From Clostridiales bacterium DTU089 (GTDB lineage Bacteria > Bacillota > Clostridia > Oscillospirales > Acutalibacteraceae): a stretch of DNA of 32,264 nucleotides. The notes below the pieces were generated by a model, which saw only the letters and a program-made list of their open reading frames with translations, was not told where the DNA came from and did not search any database. Each line of letters starts with the position of its first letter. The stretch's first letter is position 1. The stretch lies in the NCBI GenBank assembly GCA_001513045.1, contig LFSB01000018.1, positions 1 through 32,264 on the forward strand, written 5' to 3'. Shown piece after piece: positions 11,424 to 16,625 of the stretch. The translations under genes were made by a program, and so were the position numbers.

Positions 11424-12815
11424 ATGGAGCAAAAAATCATCAGTGAAAATATTGATTCATTGAATCTGCCGTTCAGCATGGAAGCCGAACAGGCGGTTCT
11501 CGGCGCCGTGCTTATGGACCCGGCGTGTATGCCTCAGGTGCTTACACTTTTAAAGCCGGAGCATTTTTATCTGCCGCAGCATAAAGATATATTCAAAACT
11601 ATGGTCAATCTTGATGCGGTGGGCTCGAAAATCGATGTGCTTATAGTGCTCGAACAGCTGAAAAGCGACAACGTGTTTGACGATGCCGGCGGAAAAAACT
11701 ATCTGTTCCAGCTTGCACAGTCCGTGCCGTCCACGGCAAATGTTGAGGCGTATGCGAAAATAGTACGCGAGAAGTTTTATGTCCGGACCCTCATAGGGGT
11801 ATCCCGCGAAATAATCGAATCGGCAACAGGCGGCGACGAAAGCGCCGACGCACTGCTTGATGCGGCGGAGCAGAAGATATACAGCATTCGTCAGGGACGA
11901 GTCTCGTCAGGCCCTCAAAGAATAGGGGACGTAATTTTCAATGACGTTTATGACAGGCTCAACAAGCTTACCTCGCCCGATAAGGACCTTTATAAAGGAA
12001 TACCTACCGGACTTTCCGATCTTGACAGAGTAATTTCGGGGCTTAACCGCTCGGATTTGATTATTCTCGGAGCACGTCCCGCAATGGGAAAAACAAGCCT
12101 TGCGCTCAACATAGCACGCAACGTAGCACTGCTTGCAAAAAAGAAGGTTCTTTTCTTTTCTTTGGAAATGTCAAACGAGCAGCTTGCACAGAGAGTCCTT
12201 TCAACCGAAGCGAGAGTAAAAAGTGAGAAAATGCGCTCCGGCGACCTCAACGACGATGATTGGGTTCGTATCGGTGAGGCGGCGGCGCTTCTTATGAAAT
12301 GTGAGCTTTATTTTGATGACACCTCAAATATAACCGTTCCCGAAATGAAGGCTCGCGTCCGCAGACTCAAGGATGTTGACTGTGTAATTGTTGACTATCT
12401 TCAGCTTATGCAGTCCGCGAAGAAAACCGAAAACCGCGTGCAGGAGGTTTCCGAAATAACCAGAAGTCTCAAGCTTATGGCTAAGGATTTGCAGATTCCG
12501 GTCATAACCTGTGCACAGCTTGCGCGAGGTCCCGAAACGAAGACGAGCACCGGTCAGGGCGTGGCTACACGTAAACCTGTGCTTTCGGATTTGCGTGAAT
12601 CCGGTTCAATTGAGCAGGATGCCGATATAGTGCTTATGCTTTACAGAGAGGCATACGGCAAGGAGGGCAGCTCGGACGCGGCGGAGTACGATTTCAACAA
12701 GGCGGAGCTGGGCGTTGCGAAGAACAGACACGGACCGACGGATAACGTAGAGCTTGCCTGGAGTCCGGAATTTACTCTTTTCTCTACAAAGGAGAAGTAC
12801 CTCGATGAGGAATGA
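11424..12815 (+). CDS. dnaB: Replicative DNA helicase DnaB (DnaC in Bacillus naming)
   Basis: This 463-residue hexameric 5'-3' helicase opens the replication fork. The N-terminal domain starts at the typical LPFSMEAEQAVLGAVLMDP. The RecA-like C-terminal domain has Walker A GARPAMGKTS (216-225), Walker B VDCVIVDYLQLM, and RESGSIEQDADIV near the end, the conserved arginine/sensor region. No intein is present. A GTG at 11412 is in frame, but the ATG at 11424 is preferred: GGTGA at 11411-11415 lies 8 nt upstream and doubles as the end of rplI. The gene overlaps the tilS start by 11 nt. Confidence 0.97.
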   Translation: MEQKIISENIDSLNLPFSMEAEQAVLGAVLMDPACMPQVLTLLKPEHFYLPQHKDIFKTMVNLDAVGSKIDVLIVLEQLKSDNVFDDAGGKNYLFQLAQSVPSTANVEAYAKIVREKFYVRTLIGVSREIIESATGGDESADALLDAAEQKIYSIRQGRVSSGPQRIGDVIFNDVYDRLNKLTSPDKDLYKGIPTGLSDLDRVISGLNRSDLIILGARPAMGKTSLALNIARNVALLAKKKVLFFSLEMSNEQLAQRVLSTEARVKSEKMRSGDLNDDDWVRIGEAAALLMKCELYFDDTSNITVPEMKARVRRLKDVDCVIVDYLQLMQSAKKTENRVQEVSEITRSLKLMAKDLQIPVITCAQLARGPETKTSTGQGVATRKPVLSDLRESGSIEQDADIVLMLYREAYGKEGSSDAAEYDFNKAELGVAKNRHGPTDNVELAWSPEFTLFSTKEKYLDEE

Positions 12816-14169
12816 ACCGCTTGACACAATCCGGAAATATTCCATGATTTCTGCCGGTGACCGTGTAATTGTCGGTCTTTCCGGCGGAGCTGATTCTGTC
12901 ACGCTGCTGCATTATCTCAACTCCTGCAGGGAGGCTCTCGGTGCGGAAATACGTGCTGCACATGTAAATCACATGATACGCGGTGATGAGGCCGACCGTG
13001 ATGAAGAATTTGTAAGACAGCTGTGCAGGCGTGAGAATATACATCTTGATGTTCTGCGCTTTGACGTTCCGGCTACGGCAAGGAGCACCGGAGAGGGTCT
13101 TGAGGAATGCGGAAGACGGATAAGATATGATTTTTTCAACACGCTTTCCGGCGGAAAAGCAAGGATTGCCACGGCGCACAACCTGAACGACTCGATGGAA
13201 ACCTTTATAATGAACCTTTGCCGCGGAGCCTCCTTGAAGGGGCTTTGCGGAATCCCTCCGGTGAGAGGGAATATTATAAGACCGCTTATTTTTACCTCGC
13301 GCACGGAAATTGAGGAGTACTGTAAGGAAAATGCCCTTGAATATGTGACCGACAGCACAAACTCCGACTGTGAGTACACCAGAAACAAAATCCGGTGTGA
13401 GCTGCTGCCTGTTATGTTTGAAATAAACCCGTCGCTTTCCTCTGCATTTCTTCGTTGCACGGAAAATCTCAGCGAGGATGAGGCTTATCTTTCACAGTGC
13501 GCCGCAAAGCTTGCGGATGAGGCTTACTGCGGTGATAACCGTTACAATTCAGTGCTTATAGCCGCGGCTCCGGAGCCGCTGAAAAAACGTGCTGTTGTTG
13601 TCGCATTCGCAAGGGCATTTGACGGCAAAATCCCCGAAAACAGGCACATTAATACTATTTGCTCTATGCTTTCCGAGGGCGGAAAGGCGGAAATTTACGG
13701 CAATTGTTTTGCGCTTGTGCATGGAGGAGTGCTTGAATTTGCCCATGCTGAAGCATCTGCGGAATATTGGGAAATTCCGATTAAATCCGACTTTGCCGAT
13801 TGTGCGTATCCCTACGGTACGCTTCATTTCAGGAAGATTTACAAAAAGGATATAAATAATTTTAAAAATATTAACAATGACGTATTGGATAATTTGATTG
13901 ATTGTGATAAAATCAATGTCACTCCGCTTCTCAGGTGCAGAAAAGAGGGGGACTCCTTCAGGAGCGGAAAAAGGCATATTACAAAGAAGTTGAAAAACCT
14001 TTACAACGAAGCGCATATACCGCTTGCTCAGAGGAACCGTATTCCCTTGATTTCCGACGGCGATGAGATAGTTTGGATAAAAGGCTTCGGGGTTTCGGAA
14101 AAATATGCCGCGTCATCAAAAAGTGAAAGCTGTATACAAATAATTGCGGAGGACAAAAATAATGCTTAA
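12805..14169 (+). CDS. tilS: tRNA(Ile)-lysidine synthase
   Basis: This 454-residue enzyme uses ATP to convert C34 of the CAU-anticodon tRNA(Ile) to lysidine, switching it from AUG to AUA decoding. The N-type PP-loop is SGGADS (26-31), followed by HVNHMIRGDEADRDE and the ATAHNLNDSMETFIMNLCRG stretch of the catalytic domain. A C-terminal TilS_C domain is seen in RCRKEGDSFRSGKRHITKKLK. AAAGGAG at 12788-12794 sets the start, which overlaps dnaB by 11 nt; the 3' end overlaps hpt by 8 nt. Such overlaps suggest translational coupling through dnaB-tilS-hpt. Confidence 0.96.
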   Translation: MRNEPLDTIRKYSMISAGDRVIVGLSGGADSVTLLHYLNSCREALGAEIRAAHVNHMIRGDEADRDEEFVRQLCRRENIHLDVLRFDVPATARSTGEGLEECGRRIRYDFFNTLSGGKARIATAHNLNDSMETFIMNLCRGASLKGLCGIPPVRGNIIRPLIFTSRTEIEEYCKENALEYVTDSTNSDCEYTRNKIRCELLPVMFEINPSLSSAFLRCTENLSEDEAYLSQCAAKLADEAYCGDNRYNSVLIAAAPEPLKKRAVVVAFARAFDGKIPENRHINTICSMLSEGGKAEIYGNCFALVHGGVLEFAHAEASAEYWEIPIKSDFADCAYPYGTLHFRKIYKKDINNFKNINNDVLDNLIDCDKINVTPLLRCRKEGDSFRSGKRHITKKLKNLYNEAHIPLAQRNRIPLISDGDEIVWIKGFGVSEKYAASSKSESCIQIIAEDKNNA

Positions 14170-14701
14170 CGATATCAAGGAAGTTTTAATATCAGAGGAA
14201 GAGCTTAATACACTTGTATCATCTCTCGGAGAGCGCATAACAAAGGACTATGAGGGGAAAAATCTGTTAATGATAAGCATACTCAAGGGCTCTGTTGTGT
14301 TTATGGCAGATCTCATGCGTTCGATAAAAATTCCCTGCAAAATAGATTTCATGTCTGTTTCAAGCTACGGCTCAGGCGTAAAAACCTCCGGAGTGGTAAA
14401 GATAATAAAGGATCTCGACACAAACATAGAAGGAGCCGACCTGCTCATTGTAGAGGATATACTTGACAGCGGAAAAACTCTTTCCTATCTCAAGGAGCTT
14501 CTTATGGCGCGAAATCCAAAAAGTCTTAAAATCTGCACGCTTCTCGACAAGCCGGAGAGGCGGCAGGTTGACCTGTCGGCAGATTATATTGGCAGAGCGG
14601 TTCCCGATGAATTTGTGGTCGGATACGGCTTGGATTATGACGAAAAATACCGCAATCTTCCCTTCGTGGGCATATTAAAAGAAGAAGTCTACAGCAATTG
14701 A
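14162..14701 (+). CDS. hpt: Hypoxanthine phosphoribosyltransferase
   Basis: This 179-residue purine-salvage enzyme makes IMP or GMP from hypoxanthine or guanine and PRPP. The PRPP-binding loop is LLIVEDILDSGKTL (94-107). The flexible-loop residues SYG (68-70) and the C-terminal FVVGYGLDYDEKYRNLPFVG segment are typical of the family. GGAGG at 14148-14152 lies 9 nt before the ATG, inside tilS. The tilS-hpt-ftsH order is widely conserved in Firmicutes. ftsH follows almost directly. Confidence 0.96.
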   Translation: MLNDIKEVLISEEELNTLVSSLGERITKDYEGKNLLMISILKGSVVFMADLMRSIKIPCKIDFMSVSSYGSGVKTSGVVKIIKDLDTNIEGADLLIVEDILDSGKTLSYLKELLMARNPKSLKICTLLDKPERRQVDLSADYIGRAVPDEFVVGYGLDYDEKYRNLPFVGILKEEVYSN

Positions 14702-14702
14702 C

Positions 14703-14710
14703 AGGAGTGA
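14703..14710 (+). promoter_or_regulatory. Ribosome-binding site that points to a non-ATG start for ftsH
   Basis: AGGAGTGA begins 2 nt after the hpt stop and closely matches AGGAGGTGA. Its AGGAG core ends 6 nt before an in-frame ATC (14714) and 9 nt before an in-frame ATA (14717). No ATG, GTG or TTG in the ftsH frame lies within reach; the next in-frame ATG is more than 110 nt away at 14822. Confidence 0.7.
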
Positions 14711-14716
14711 TATATC

Positions 14717-16567
14717 ATATTTAAAGACGGACGATGGAGAGCTATAATCCCGTATATACTTATTCCGGTATGCCTTATAGCGCTTTTATCTGTTTATTCA
14801 ACAACAGAAAAGCGCGATAAGATGGAGTATTACCAGATAATAGAACTCTTCGAAAAAGAGCAAATTGCACAATACAAGCTCAATCTCAGCAGCGGTGTTC
14901 TCAACTACACGCTCAAGGACGGAACGGTCAGCAAATATACCGTACCCAATGTCGGGATGTTTGTTGAGGATATTCATGATGATGTGCTTGCATACAATGA
15001 GGCGAATGCCGAAACGCCGATAAAATACGATTATGACCCCGGCTCCTCGTCCTCGTGGTGGGTGAGTCTGATTCCCACTGCGCTGCTTATTGTTGTCATG
15101 GCGGTAATCATGGTGCTTATGATTCGCAAGATGAATCAGTCCATGAACGCGGAGAACAACCGTGCAATGAGCTTCGGAAAGGCGCGTGTAAAGCAGGGCG
15201 CGGATGAAAAGCGAAAGACTACCTTTGCGGATGTTGCCGGTGCCGACGAGGAAAAGGAAGAGCTTTCGGAAATAGTCGAATTCCTCAGAAATCCGTCCCA
15301 GTTTAATGAGCTTGGCGCGAGAATACCCAAGGGCGTTCTGCTTGTAGGACCTCCCGGTACGGGTAAAACTCTTCTTGCAAGAGCAGTCGCAGGTGAGGCG
15401 GGTGTGCCTTTCTTTTCGATATCCGGCTCTGATTTTGTTGAGATGTATGTCGGTGTGGGCGCGTCCAGAGTGCGCGACCTTTTTGACCAGGCAAAGAAAA
15501 ATGCTCCGGCTATAATATTTATTGATGAAATTGATGCTGTCGGTCGTCATCGCGGCGCCGGAATGGGCGGAGGACACGACGAAAGAGAGCAGACTCTTAA
15601 CCAGTTGCTCGTTGAAATGGACGGCTTCGGAGCAAATGAGGGAGTAATCATCATAGCTGCCACCAACCGCCCCGACATTCTTGACCCGGCGCTTCTCAGA
15701 CCCGGACGCTTCGACCGTCAGATTACTGTCGGATATCCGGATGTCAAGGGCAGGGAGGAAATACTCAAGGTTCACGCCAGAAGCAAACCGCTTGCACCTG
15801 ATGTTGAGTTGAAAAAGATAGCGCAGTCAACCGTTGGCTTTACGGGTGCAGACCTTGAAAATCTTCTGAACGAGGCGGCGCTGCTTGCGGCAAGACGCGG
15901 CAAGAAAGCGCTTACAATGGATGAAATAGACGAAGCAACCATAAAGGTCATCGTCGGAACCGAAAAGAAATCCCACAAGCGCTCCGATGAGGATAAAAAA
16001 ATCACCGCCTACCATGAGGCGGGGCACGCAGTGGCAACTTATTTCCTTGAAGGGCAGGATCCGGTACAGCAGGTTTCTATTATTCCCAGAGGCATGGCTG
16101 CGGGCTTTACGCTTTCACGACCCGAAAACGACCAGATGCACATGTCGCGTTCAAGGATGCTTGACGATATTGTTGTGCTCCTCGGCGGAAGAGTTGCCGA
16201 ATCCATCACAATAGGCGATATCTGCACAGGTGCGTCAAATGACATAGAGAGGGCAACGGGCATGGCGCGCGATATGGTTACGAAGTACGGCATGAGCGAA
16301 ACGCTCGGTCCGATAGCTTTCGGCTCATCAAACGATGAGGTGTTCCTCGGTAAGGATTACAATCACATGCGCAATTATTCCGAGAGTGTTGCCGCGGAGA
16401 TAGACAACGAGGTTGAGAAGATAATTTCCACCTCATACGGCCGTTGCGAGAAGATACTCAAGGAGCATATCGACAAGCTTCAGCTGCTTGCGAAGCACCT
16501 TATGGAGTTTGAAAAAATAGACGGTGCCGAATTCAAGCGTTTAATGACTGCACAGGCGGCGGAGTAA
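14717..16567 (+). CDS. ftsH: ATP-dependent zinc metalloprotease FtsH, probable ATA start
   Basis: This membrane AAA+ protease has 616 residues if begun at the ATA at 14717. The region before the first in-frame ATG (14822) encodes a basic segment and a hydrophobic helix (about [20 protein letters not shown], nt 14741-14800), which is the first FtsH membrane segment. The second is at nt ~15058-15126. Then come Walker A GPPGTGKT (211-218), Walker B IFIDEID (D270), the second region of homology [18 protein letters not shown], and the zinc site HEAGH (433-437). Starting at 14822 would remove the first membrane helix, so that start is rejected. Either ATA/ATC initiates or a base has changed from ATG. 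It ends the core block at a strong terminator. Confidence 0.9.
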
Positions 16568-16577
16568 ACTAATAAGA

Positions 16578-16610
16578 AGCACCCGGTTCATACGAATCGG
16601 GTGCTTTTTT
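16578..16610 (+). terminator. Intrinsic terminator after ftsH
   Basis: A 12-bp stem (16578-16589 with 16594-16605, one G-T wobble) closes on the tetraloop ATAC and is followed by a run of Ts. It ends 15 nt before the stop of the convergent lipoprotein gene and marks the end of the plus-strand core block. Confidence 0.9.
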
Positions 16611-16625
16611 GCTGTGATGTGACAA

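Follow-up and report, generated by a model that had tools for sequence, protein, structure and literature searches.

The ftsH gene of a clostridial lineage very probably starts at a near-cognate AUA or AUU codon positioned by a Shine-Dalgarno (SD) sequence, and such a start would be inefficient and keep the rate of FtsH synthesis low. The gene lies in a stretch of 32,264 nucleotides from Clostridiales bacterium DTU089 (contig LFSB01000018.1), referred to here as the window, where the proposed start codon is ATA at 14717..14719 on the forward strand. This codon stands at the SD spacing typical of its genome, is conserved among relatives as ATA or ATT, and is followed by a stretch that evolves as coding sequence.

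The ftsH locus and its start region

The window ftsH (14717..16567, forward strand, as are the neighboring genes and the elements of the start region) encodes an AAA+ membrane metalloprotease in which a Pfam AAA domain (PF00004, E = 6.7e-51) is followed by a Peptidase_M41 domain (PF01434, E = 5e-68), the architecture by which FtsH is recognized. No other M41 match turned up in the assembly of 59 contigs. The translation contains HEAGH, which fits the HExxH zinc motif of FtsH, and its N-terminal region has two hydrophobic stretches, identified by eye only. Upstream lie a tilS-like gene for a tRNA-Ile lysidine synthetase (12754..14169; PF01171 and PF11734) and then an hpt-like phosphoribosyltransferase ORF (14144..14701; PF00156), whose name is inferred from gene order; the coordinates of both are those of the ORFs. 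Just 3' of ftsH, an inverted repeat trailed by T's (16580-16612) looks terminator-like by eye.

The hpt-like ORF stops at TGA 14699-14701, leaving 15 nt before ATA 14717. This interval contains the SD motif AGGAG (14703..14707), within AGGAGTGA (14703-14710), and a TGA (14708..14710) that closes the ftsH frame upstream. After this TGA the frame reads TAT ATC ATA TTT AAA GAC GGA CGA TGG AGA GCT, and its first canonical start codon (ATG, GTG, or TTG) is the ATG at 14822..14824, 35 codons past ATA 14717. The absence of a canonical start between the TGA and 14822 had been pointed out in a preliminary description of this DNA, and the sequence confirms it. The same description held that codons 14723-14821 encode the basic start and first membrane helix expected of FtsH; by eye, the translation of 14720..14821 does contain a basic start and the first membrane helix, and the substitution pattern described below agrees. 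The predicted fold of 14660-14780 was no better than that of shuffled sequences (z -0.34), and we claim no structural regulation.

Two codons, ATC 14714..14716 and ATA 14717, had been proposed as suitably placed for the SD. Over roughly 1.08 Mb sampled from this genome, the window being part of the sample, the best ATG starts backed by an SD match of at least 6 bases show an aligned spacing that peaks at 7-8 (119/216). Spacings from the window SD are 5 for ATC 14714, 8 for ATA 14717, and 11 for TTT 14720. Since a spacing of 8 fits the genome's own mode better, ATA 14717 rather than ATC 14714 is most probably the ftsH start; the ATC codon is also not conserved in the genus. Initiation at ATC 14714, or at TTT 14720 as the homolog of a UUG start found elsewhere in the family, is unlikely. 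ATC is likewise near-cognate, and TTT takes the place of UUG when sequences are aligned on the following AAA, with AGGAG-N12-TTG common in the family by eye; however, both spacings are off the genome mode, the codon before ATA/ATT is GTT, GTC, or ACT in most other same-genus loci, and the TTT position is GTA in locus L003 and ATC in L006 while the preceding ATA is constant.

Our start calls are simple SD matches, and an SD-based caller cannot prove starts; it also requires a rough anchor for matches that begin late (e.g., L188, L377, and L378). The SD match of the window ftsH is 5 bases long, compared with 6-7 in the other 18 non-AUG loci of the genus.

Conservation of the start codon within the genus

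The genus set comprised 22 genomes including that of the window. A match to the query was found in 21, that in G007 being a weak AAA match only, and in G014 there was none; the ftsH 5' end was readable in 20. Genus and family are here the groupings of the tool used. Loci in relatives were located by tblastn, earlier regular expressions having missed most of them. Loci L060-L139 were read but stand outside the tallies, and apparent repeats (e.g., L065 = L011) were counted once.

The preliminary description had weighed a rare natural start against a consensus error and had proposed comparison with close relatives as a check. In 19 of the 20 readable loci the sole SD-backed start is ATA (10) or ATT (9), with an SD match of 5-7 bases and an aligned spacing of 8-9, and ATG occurs only in L019. 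This supports the natural start. A consensus or assembly error hiding an ATG at 14717 would take a single substitution, in an assembly of 59 contigs, but it is extremely unlikely: ATA or ATT recurs at this position in separate genomes, L003 and L006 have ATA there as the window does, and a second clade spanning three genera (see below) has AUA, AUU, or AUC (hereafter AUH) in 8/8 genomes.

Two arrangements were seen, AGGAG-N9-ATA in the window, L003, and L006, and AGGTGA-N6-AT(A/T)-AAA in the other 16 loci. The two codons ahead of the start vary (GCT GTT, CTT ACT, TAT ATC, and others) while the start itself stays ATA or ATT. ATC is never found at this position, though 17 of these genes together use it for 130 of their 834 Ile codons. 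The loci are related to one another, and hence no probability is attached to this conservation. In L006 an extra ATG lies two codons upstream of ATA, only 3 nt past AGGAG.

We then have a pattern of the kind known for infC: AUA, AUU, or AUC at SD distance, no SD-backed canonical start, and conservation across species, here in 19/20 same-genus loci and 8/8 second-clade genomes. It is this conservation across loci, and not the genome screen described below, that makes the ftsH start more than chance.

Coding pattern downstream of the start

Substitutions were compared in 16 close pairs with amino-acid identity of at least 70%. After ATA/ATT, differences at codon positions 1, 2, and 3 were 0.173, 0.081, and 0.373; of the codon differences, 135 were synonymous and 127 non-synonymous. 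From -45 to -16 the corresponding values were 0.49, 0.63, and 0.49 (120 triplets, pairs with a short upstream region dropped). These position-specific rates indicate coding evolution downstream of ATA but not ahead of the SD.

This bears on whether translation begins instead at ATG 14822, in which case FtsH would lack the first membrane helix. That codon is the first in-frame ATG, GTG, or TTG, but no SD was found for it and the codons ahead of it evolve as coding, so such a start is very improbable. The next canonical codon lies 6 to 37 codons downstream of the start in the 19 non-AUG loci, and in all 19 it lacks an SD match of 5 or more bases; this includes L004, L005, L007, and L021, where an in-frame ATG or GTG follows after only 6-9 codons, again without an SD.

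We give next to no credence to entry into the ftsH frame from elsewhere, either from an out-of-frame GTG within the SD (14707) followed by a frameshift or by readthrough from hpt. A GTG does precede the start by 10 nt in 19/19 non-AUG loci, but it belongs to the SD consensus, and in the window, L004, and L010 its frame soon reaches TAA, within 4-5 codons (by eye). As for readthrough, hpt and ftsH share a frame in the window, but the gap between them ranges from 13 to 95 nt and the frame is common to both genes in only 3 of 18 measured non-AUG loci.

Start codons of ftsH in the family, class, and phylum

For more distant genomes the start was called as the best SD-backed codon ahead of the first helix. 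The family set consisted of 108 loci from 111 matching genomes of other genera, with 3 late-starting matches and one second copy excluded. TTG predominates among them (80), followed by ATG (18), GTG (6), ATC (2), ATA (1), and one TTG without an SD. The pattern extends to the class, where 29 loci from 30 other genomes gave TTG 24, ATG 3, GTG 1, and one doubtful call (L376, ATG without an SD), and to the phylum (28 loci: TTG 22, ATG 5, GTG 1). The loci of this UUG-start survey are L032-L059, L140-L219, and L350-L406.

The neighboring hpt gene, wherever a start could be called for it, served as a control. Its start is ATG in 16/19 loci of the genus (the other 3 being GTG without an SD), in 21/26 of the family (13 genomes without a match and 69 incomplete loci excluded), in 17/21 of the class (two of these without an SD, and two further loci without a canonical codon), and in 5/8 of the phylum (20 without a match excluded). 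In the sample of the window genome, the best SD-backed starts are ATG 442, GTG 62, and TTG 56, so that TTG makes up 56/560. Judged by these hpt controls and the genome sample, ftsH starts at UUG clearly more often than the measured background. By automated calling, weak starts of ftsH are common well beyond the window's genus, which itself went further; the widespread UUG is the more general point beyond the AUA/AUU start itself. A DNA pattern search across the family was too narrow to be informative (7/398 genomes), and no near-copy of the start region was found in viral contigs.

A second clade with AUH starts

Three loci with AUH starts from three other genera (L146, L155, and L169) form one clade with support 1.0 and UUG neighbors in an FtsH tree built from the first 288 columns. 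With five additional genomes from two of these three genera, an AUH codon stands at SD distance at ftsH in 8/8 second-clade genomes (3 by automated calling and 5 by eye; loci L146, L155, L169, and L411-L416). Canonical codons do occur nearby: an ATG abuts the SD in L146, L411, and L416, all of one genus, as does a TTG in L413, and a GTG overlaps the SD in L155. Going by their positions in the sequence, these codons are too close to the SD for a normal start.

The 288-column tree did not resolve the placement of the window FtsH. In a full-length FtsH tree its sister is a genus with a UUG start (L032; support 0.971), and ftsH in this sister genus begins with TTG in 5/5 genomes. Because the sister is a UUG-start genus, a single origin of AUH within the window's genus is not established; there may have been one gain with reversals, or several gains. 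For the family as a whole, the sequences suggest that AUH at ftsH probably arose at least 2 times.

infC and rseP

infC is the expected positive control for AUH starts. By eye, GGAGG-N9-AUH is present in 20/20 scored same-genus infC loci (ATC 14, ATT 5, ATA 1), L227 being left out of the scoring since it lacks the motif. The window genome's own infC (L220, contig C37) has GGAGG-N9-ATA followed five codons later by an ATG, and L240 likewise has an ATG a few codons past its AUH.

A second membrane protease gene, rseP (site-2 protease), shows a similar tendency. In the window genome (L243:7258, minus strand, contig C3) its start is apparently ATT, behind GAGGTGAT. AUH was called in 14/20 scored same-genus rseP loci (ATA 10, ATC 3, ATT 1), with L264, which reads TTG, unscored. 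In the same-genus AUH loci the SD contains a GTG that shares the rseP frame and could conceivably serve as the start, though no SD was found for it. Among other genera, for which the most similar 28 of 101 genomes with a match were taken, AUH was called in 9/26 loci. Loci L322, L335, L336, L347, and L349 (G118, G023, G131, G038, and G049, respectively) have AUH at SD distance and no SD-backed canonical start. The calls in L326, L331, and L338 are uncertain, a canonical codon following soon after in each. The rseP match in L274 (G019) was reported with one internal TAG.

Genome screen for AUH starts

A filtered screen of 969 ORFs in about 1.08 Mb of the window genome returned 12 candidates for ATA, ATT, and ATC combined. 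Under the same filter, 14 control codons returned 0-15 candidates each and 39 in total (AAA 15, AAT 7, the rest 0-4). With control codons giving comparable numbers, the raw AUH count is not above background and the filter has no power of its own. Only ftsH and rseP were clear by eye among the 12, and 2-3 candidates were left aside. Most of the others were rejected, either because the Ile codon closely follows an ATG or because the gene has a plausible canonical start. An initial screen that included CTG gave 11 candidates, rseP among them, and a looser form gave 71, mostly internal codons. A tRNA scan of 57 stretches, less than half of the genome, found one tRNA-Met and nothing strikingly unusual, leaving room for an altered initiator tRNA in the remainder.

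A model for low FtsH synthesis and its relation to known systems

In the mechanism that we propose, the SD would bring the AUA or AUU of ftsH into the ribosomal P site, where initiator tRNA would read it with a third-position mismatch, making methionine the predicted first residue. Start-codon proofreading by IF3 would then reject most of these complexes, so that initiation would be inefficient and FtsH synthesis low, perhaps in a manner sensitive to IF3. The lineage probably inherited the weak UUG ftsH start common in the phylum, and AUA or AUU would have replaced UUG without repair to AUG. Excess FtsH is thought to be harmful, and a low rate would make sense.

The expectation of a low rate is drawn from measured cases in Staphylococcus aureus, where, in poor medium, reporter output from an AUA or AUU start was about 10% of that from AUG, and the ccpN reporter came to as much as 30% in rich medium (PMC13009471). 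By this analogy, the low expression that the preliminary description suggested for FtsH is plausible, and the conservation of the AUA/AUU start in nearly all close relatives examined suggests that FtsH production is limited as early as translation initiation. The S. aureus genes ccpN (AUA), cvfC1 (AUU), and citZ (AUA) combine non-canonical starts with an extended SD (PMC13009471); they differ from the present case in being other genes, and the word ftsH is absent from the main text of that paper.

Only a few genes, infC above all, are believed to use a start codon outside the set AUG, GUG, and UUG. The AUA start of S. aureus infC has been mapped by Ribo-Ret, and E. coli infC is stated to be autoregulated through IF3 (both PMC13009471). 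The ftsH start resembles that of infC in having a near-cognate AUH behind an SD at similar spacing, but ftsH encodes a membrane protease. We know of no feedback of the ftsH product on IF3. In E. coli, ftsH also has a weak start codon, identified by tetracycline ribosome profiling and backed by lacZ fusions (PMC4909307), but this is UUG, a canonical minor start, as opposed to AUA or AUU here. Among open-licence PMC papers we found none describing ftsH with an AUU or AUA start, which does not prove absence. AUH starts are thus of an already known kind (infC, ccpN, and others), with ftsH as a new gene among them.

Changes of start codon were surveyed in 36 groups of prokaryotes by Belinky et al. 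(2017; PMC5622118). In the counts given there, 2,468 ancestral UUG starts changed to AUG in 43 cases, to GUG in 35, and to CUG in 1, with none to AUU or AUA; the switches to AUU were one from AUG and one from GUG. In contrast, a change from UUG to AUH would have occurred here in at least 2 lineages.

For annotation, gene finders limited to ATG, GTG, and TTG would annotate FtsH only from 14822 on and miss its first membrane helix. For experiment, ftsH offers a natural series of start codons (AUG, UUG, AUU, AUA, and AUC) with which dose control could be tested. A more speculative possibility, which we hold only tentatively, is that infC, ftsH, and rseP form a small IF3-discriminated set in this family, through which two membrane proteases would track the supply of initiation factor, and that the weak ftsH start is ancient and selected and became weaker still, from UUG to AUH, on two or more occasions. 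Taken together, a conserved AUA or AUU start on a widely conserved protease and the UUG start of ftsH in most of the genomes sampled from the phylum suggest that the dose of FtsH is restrained at initiation.
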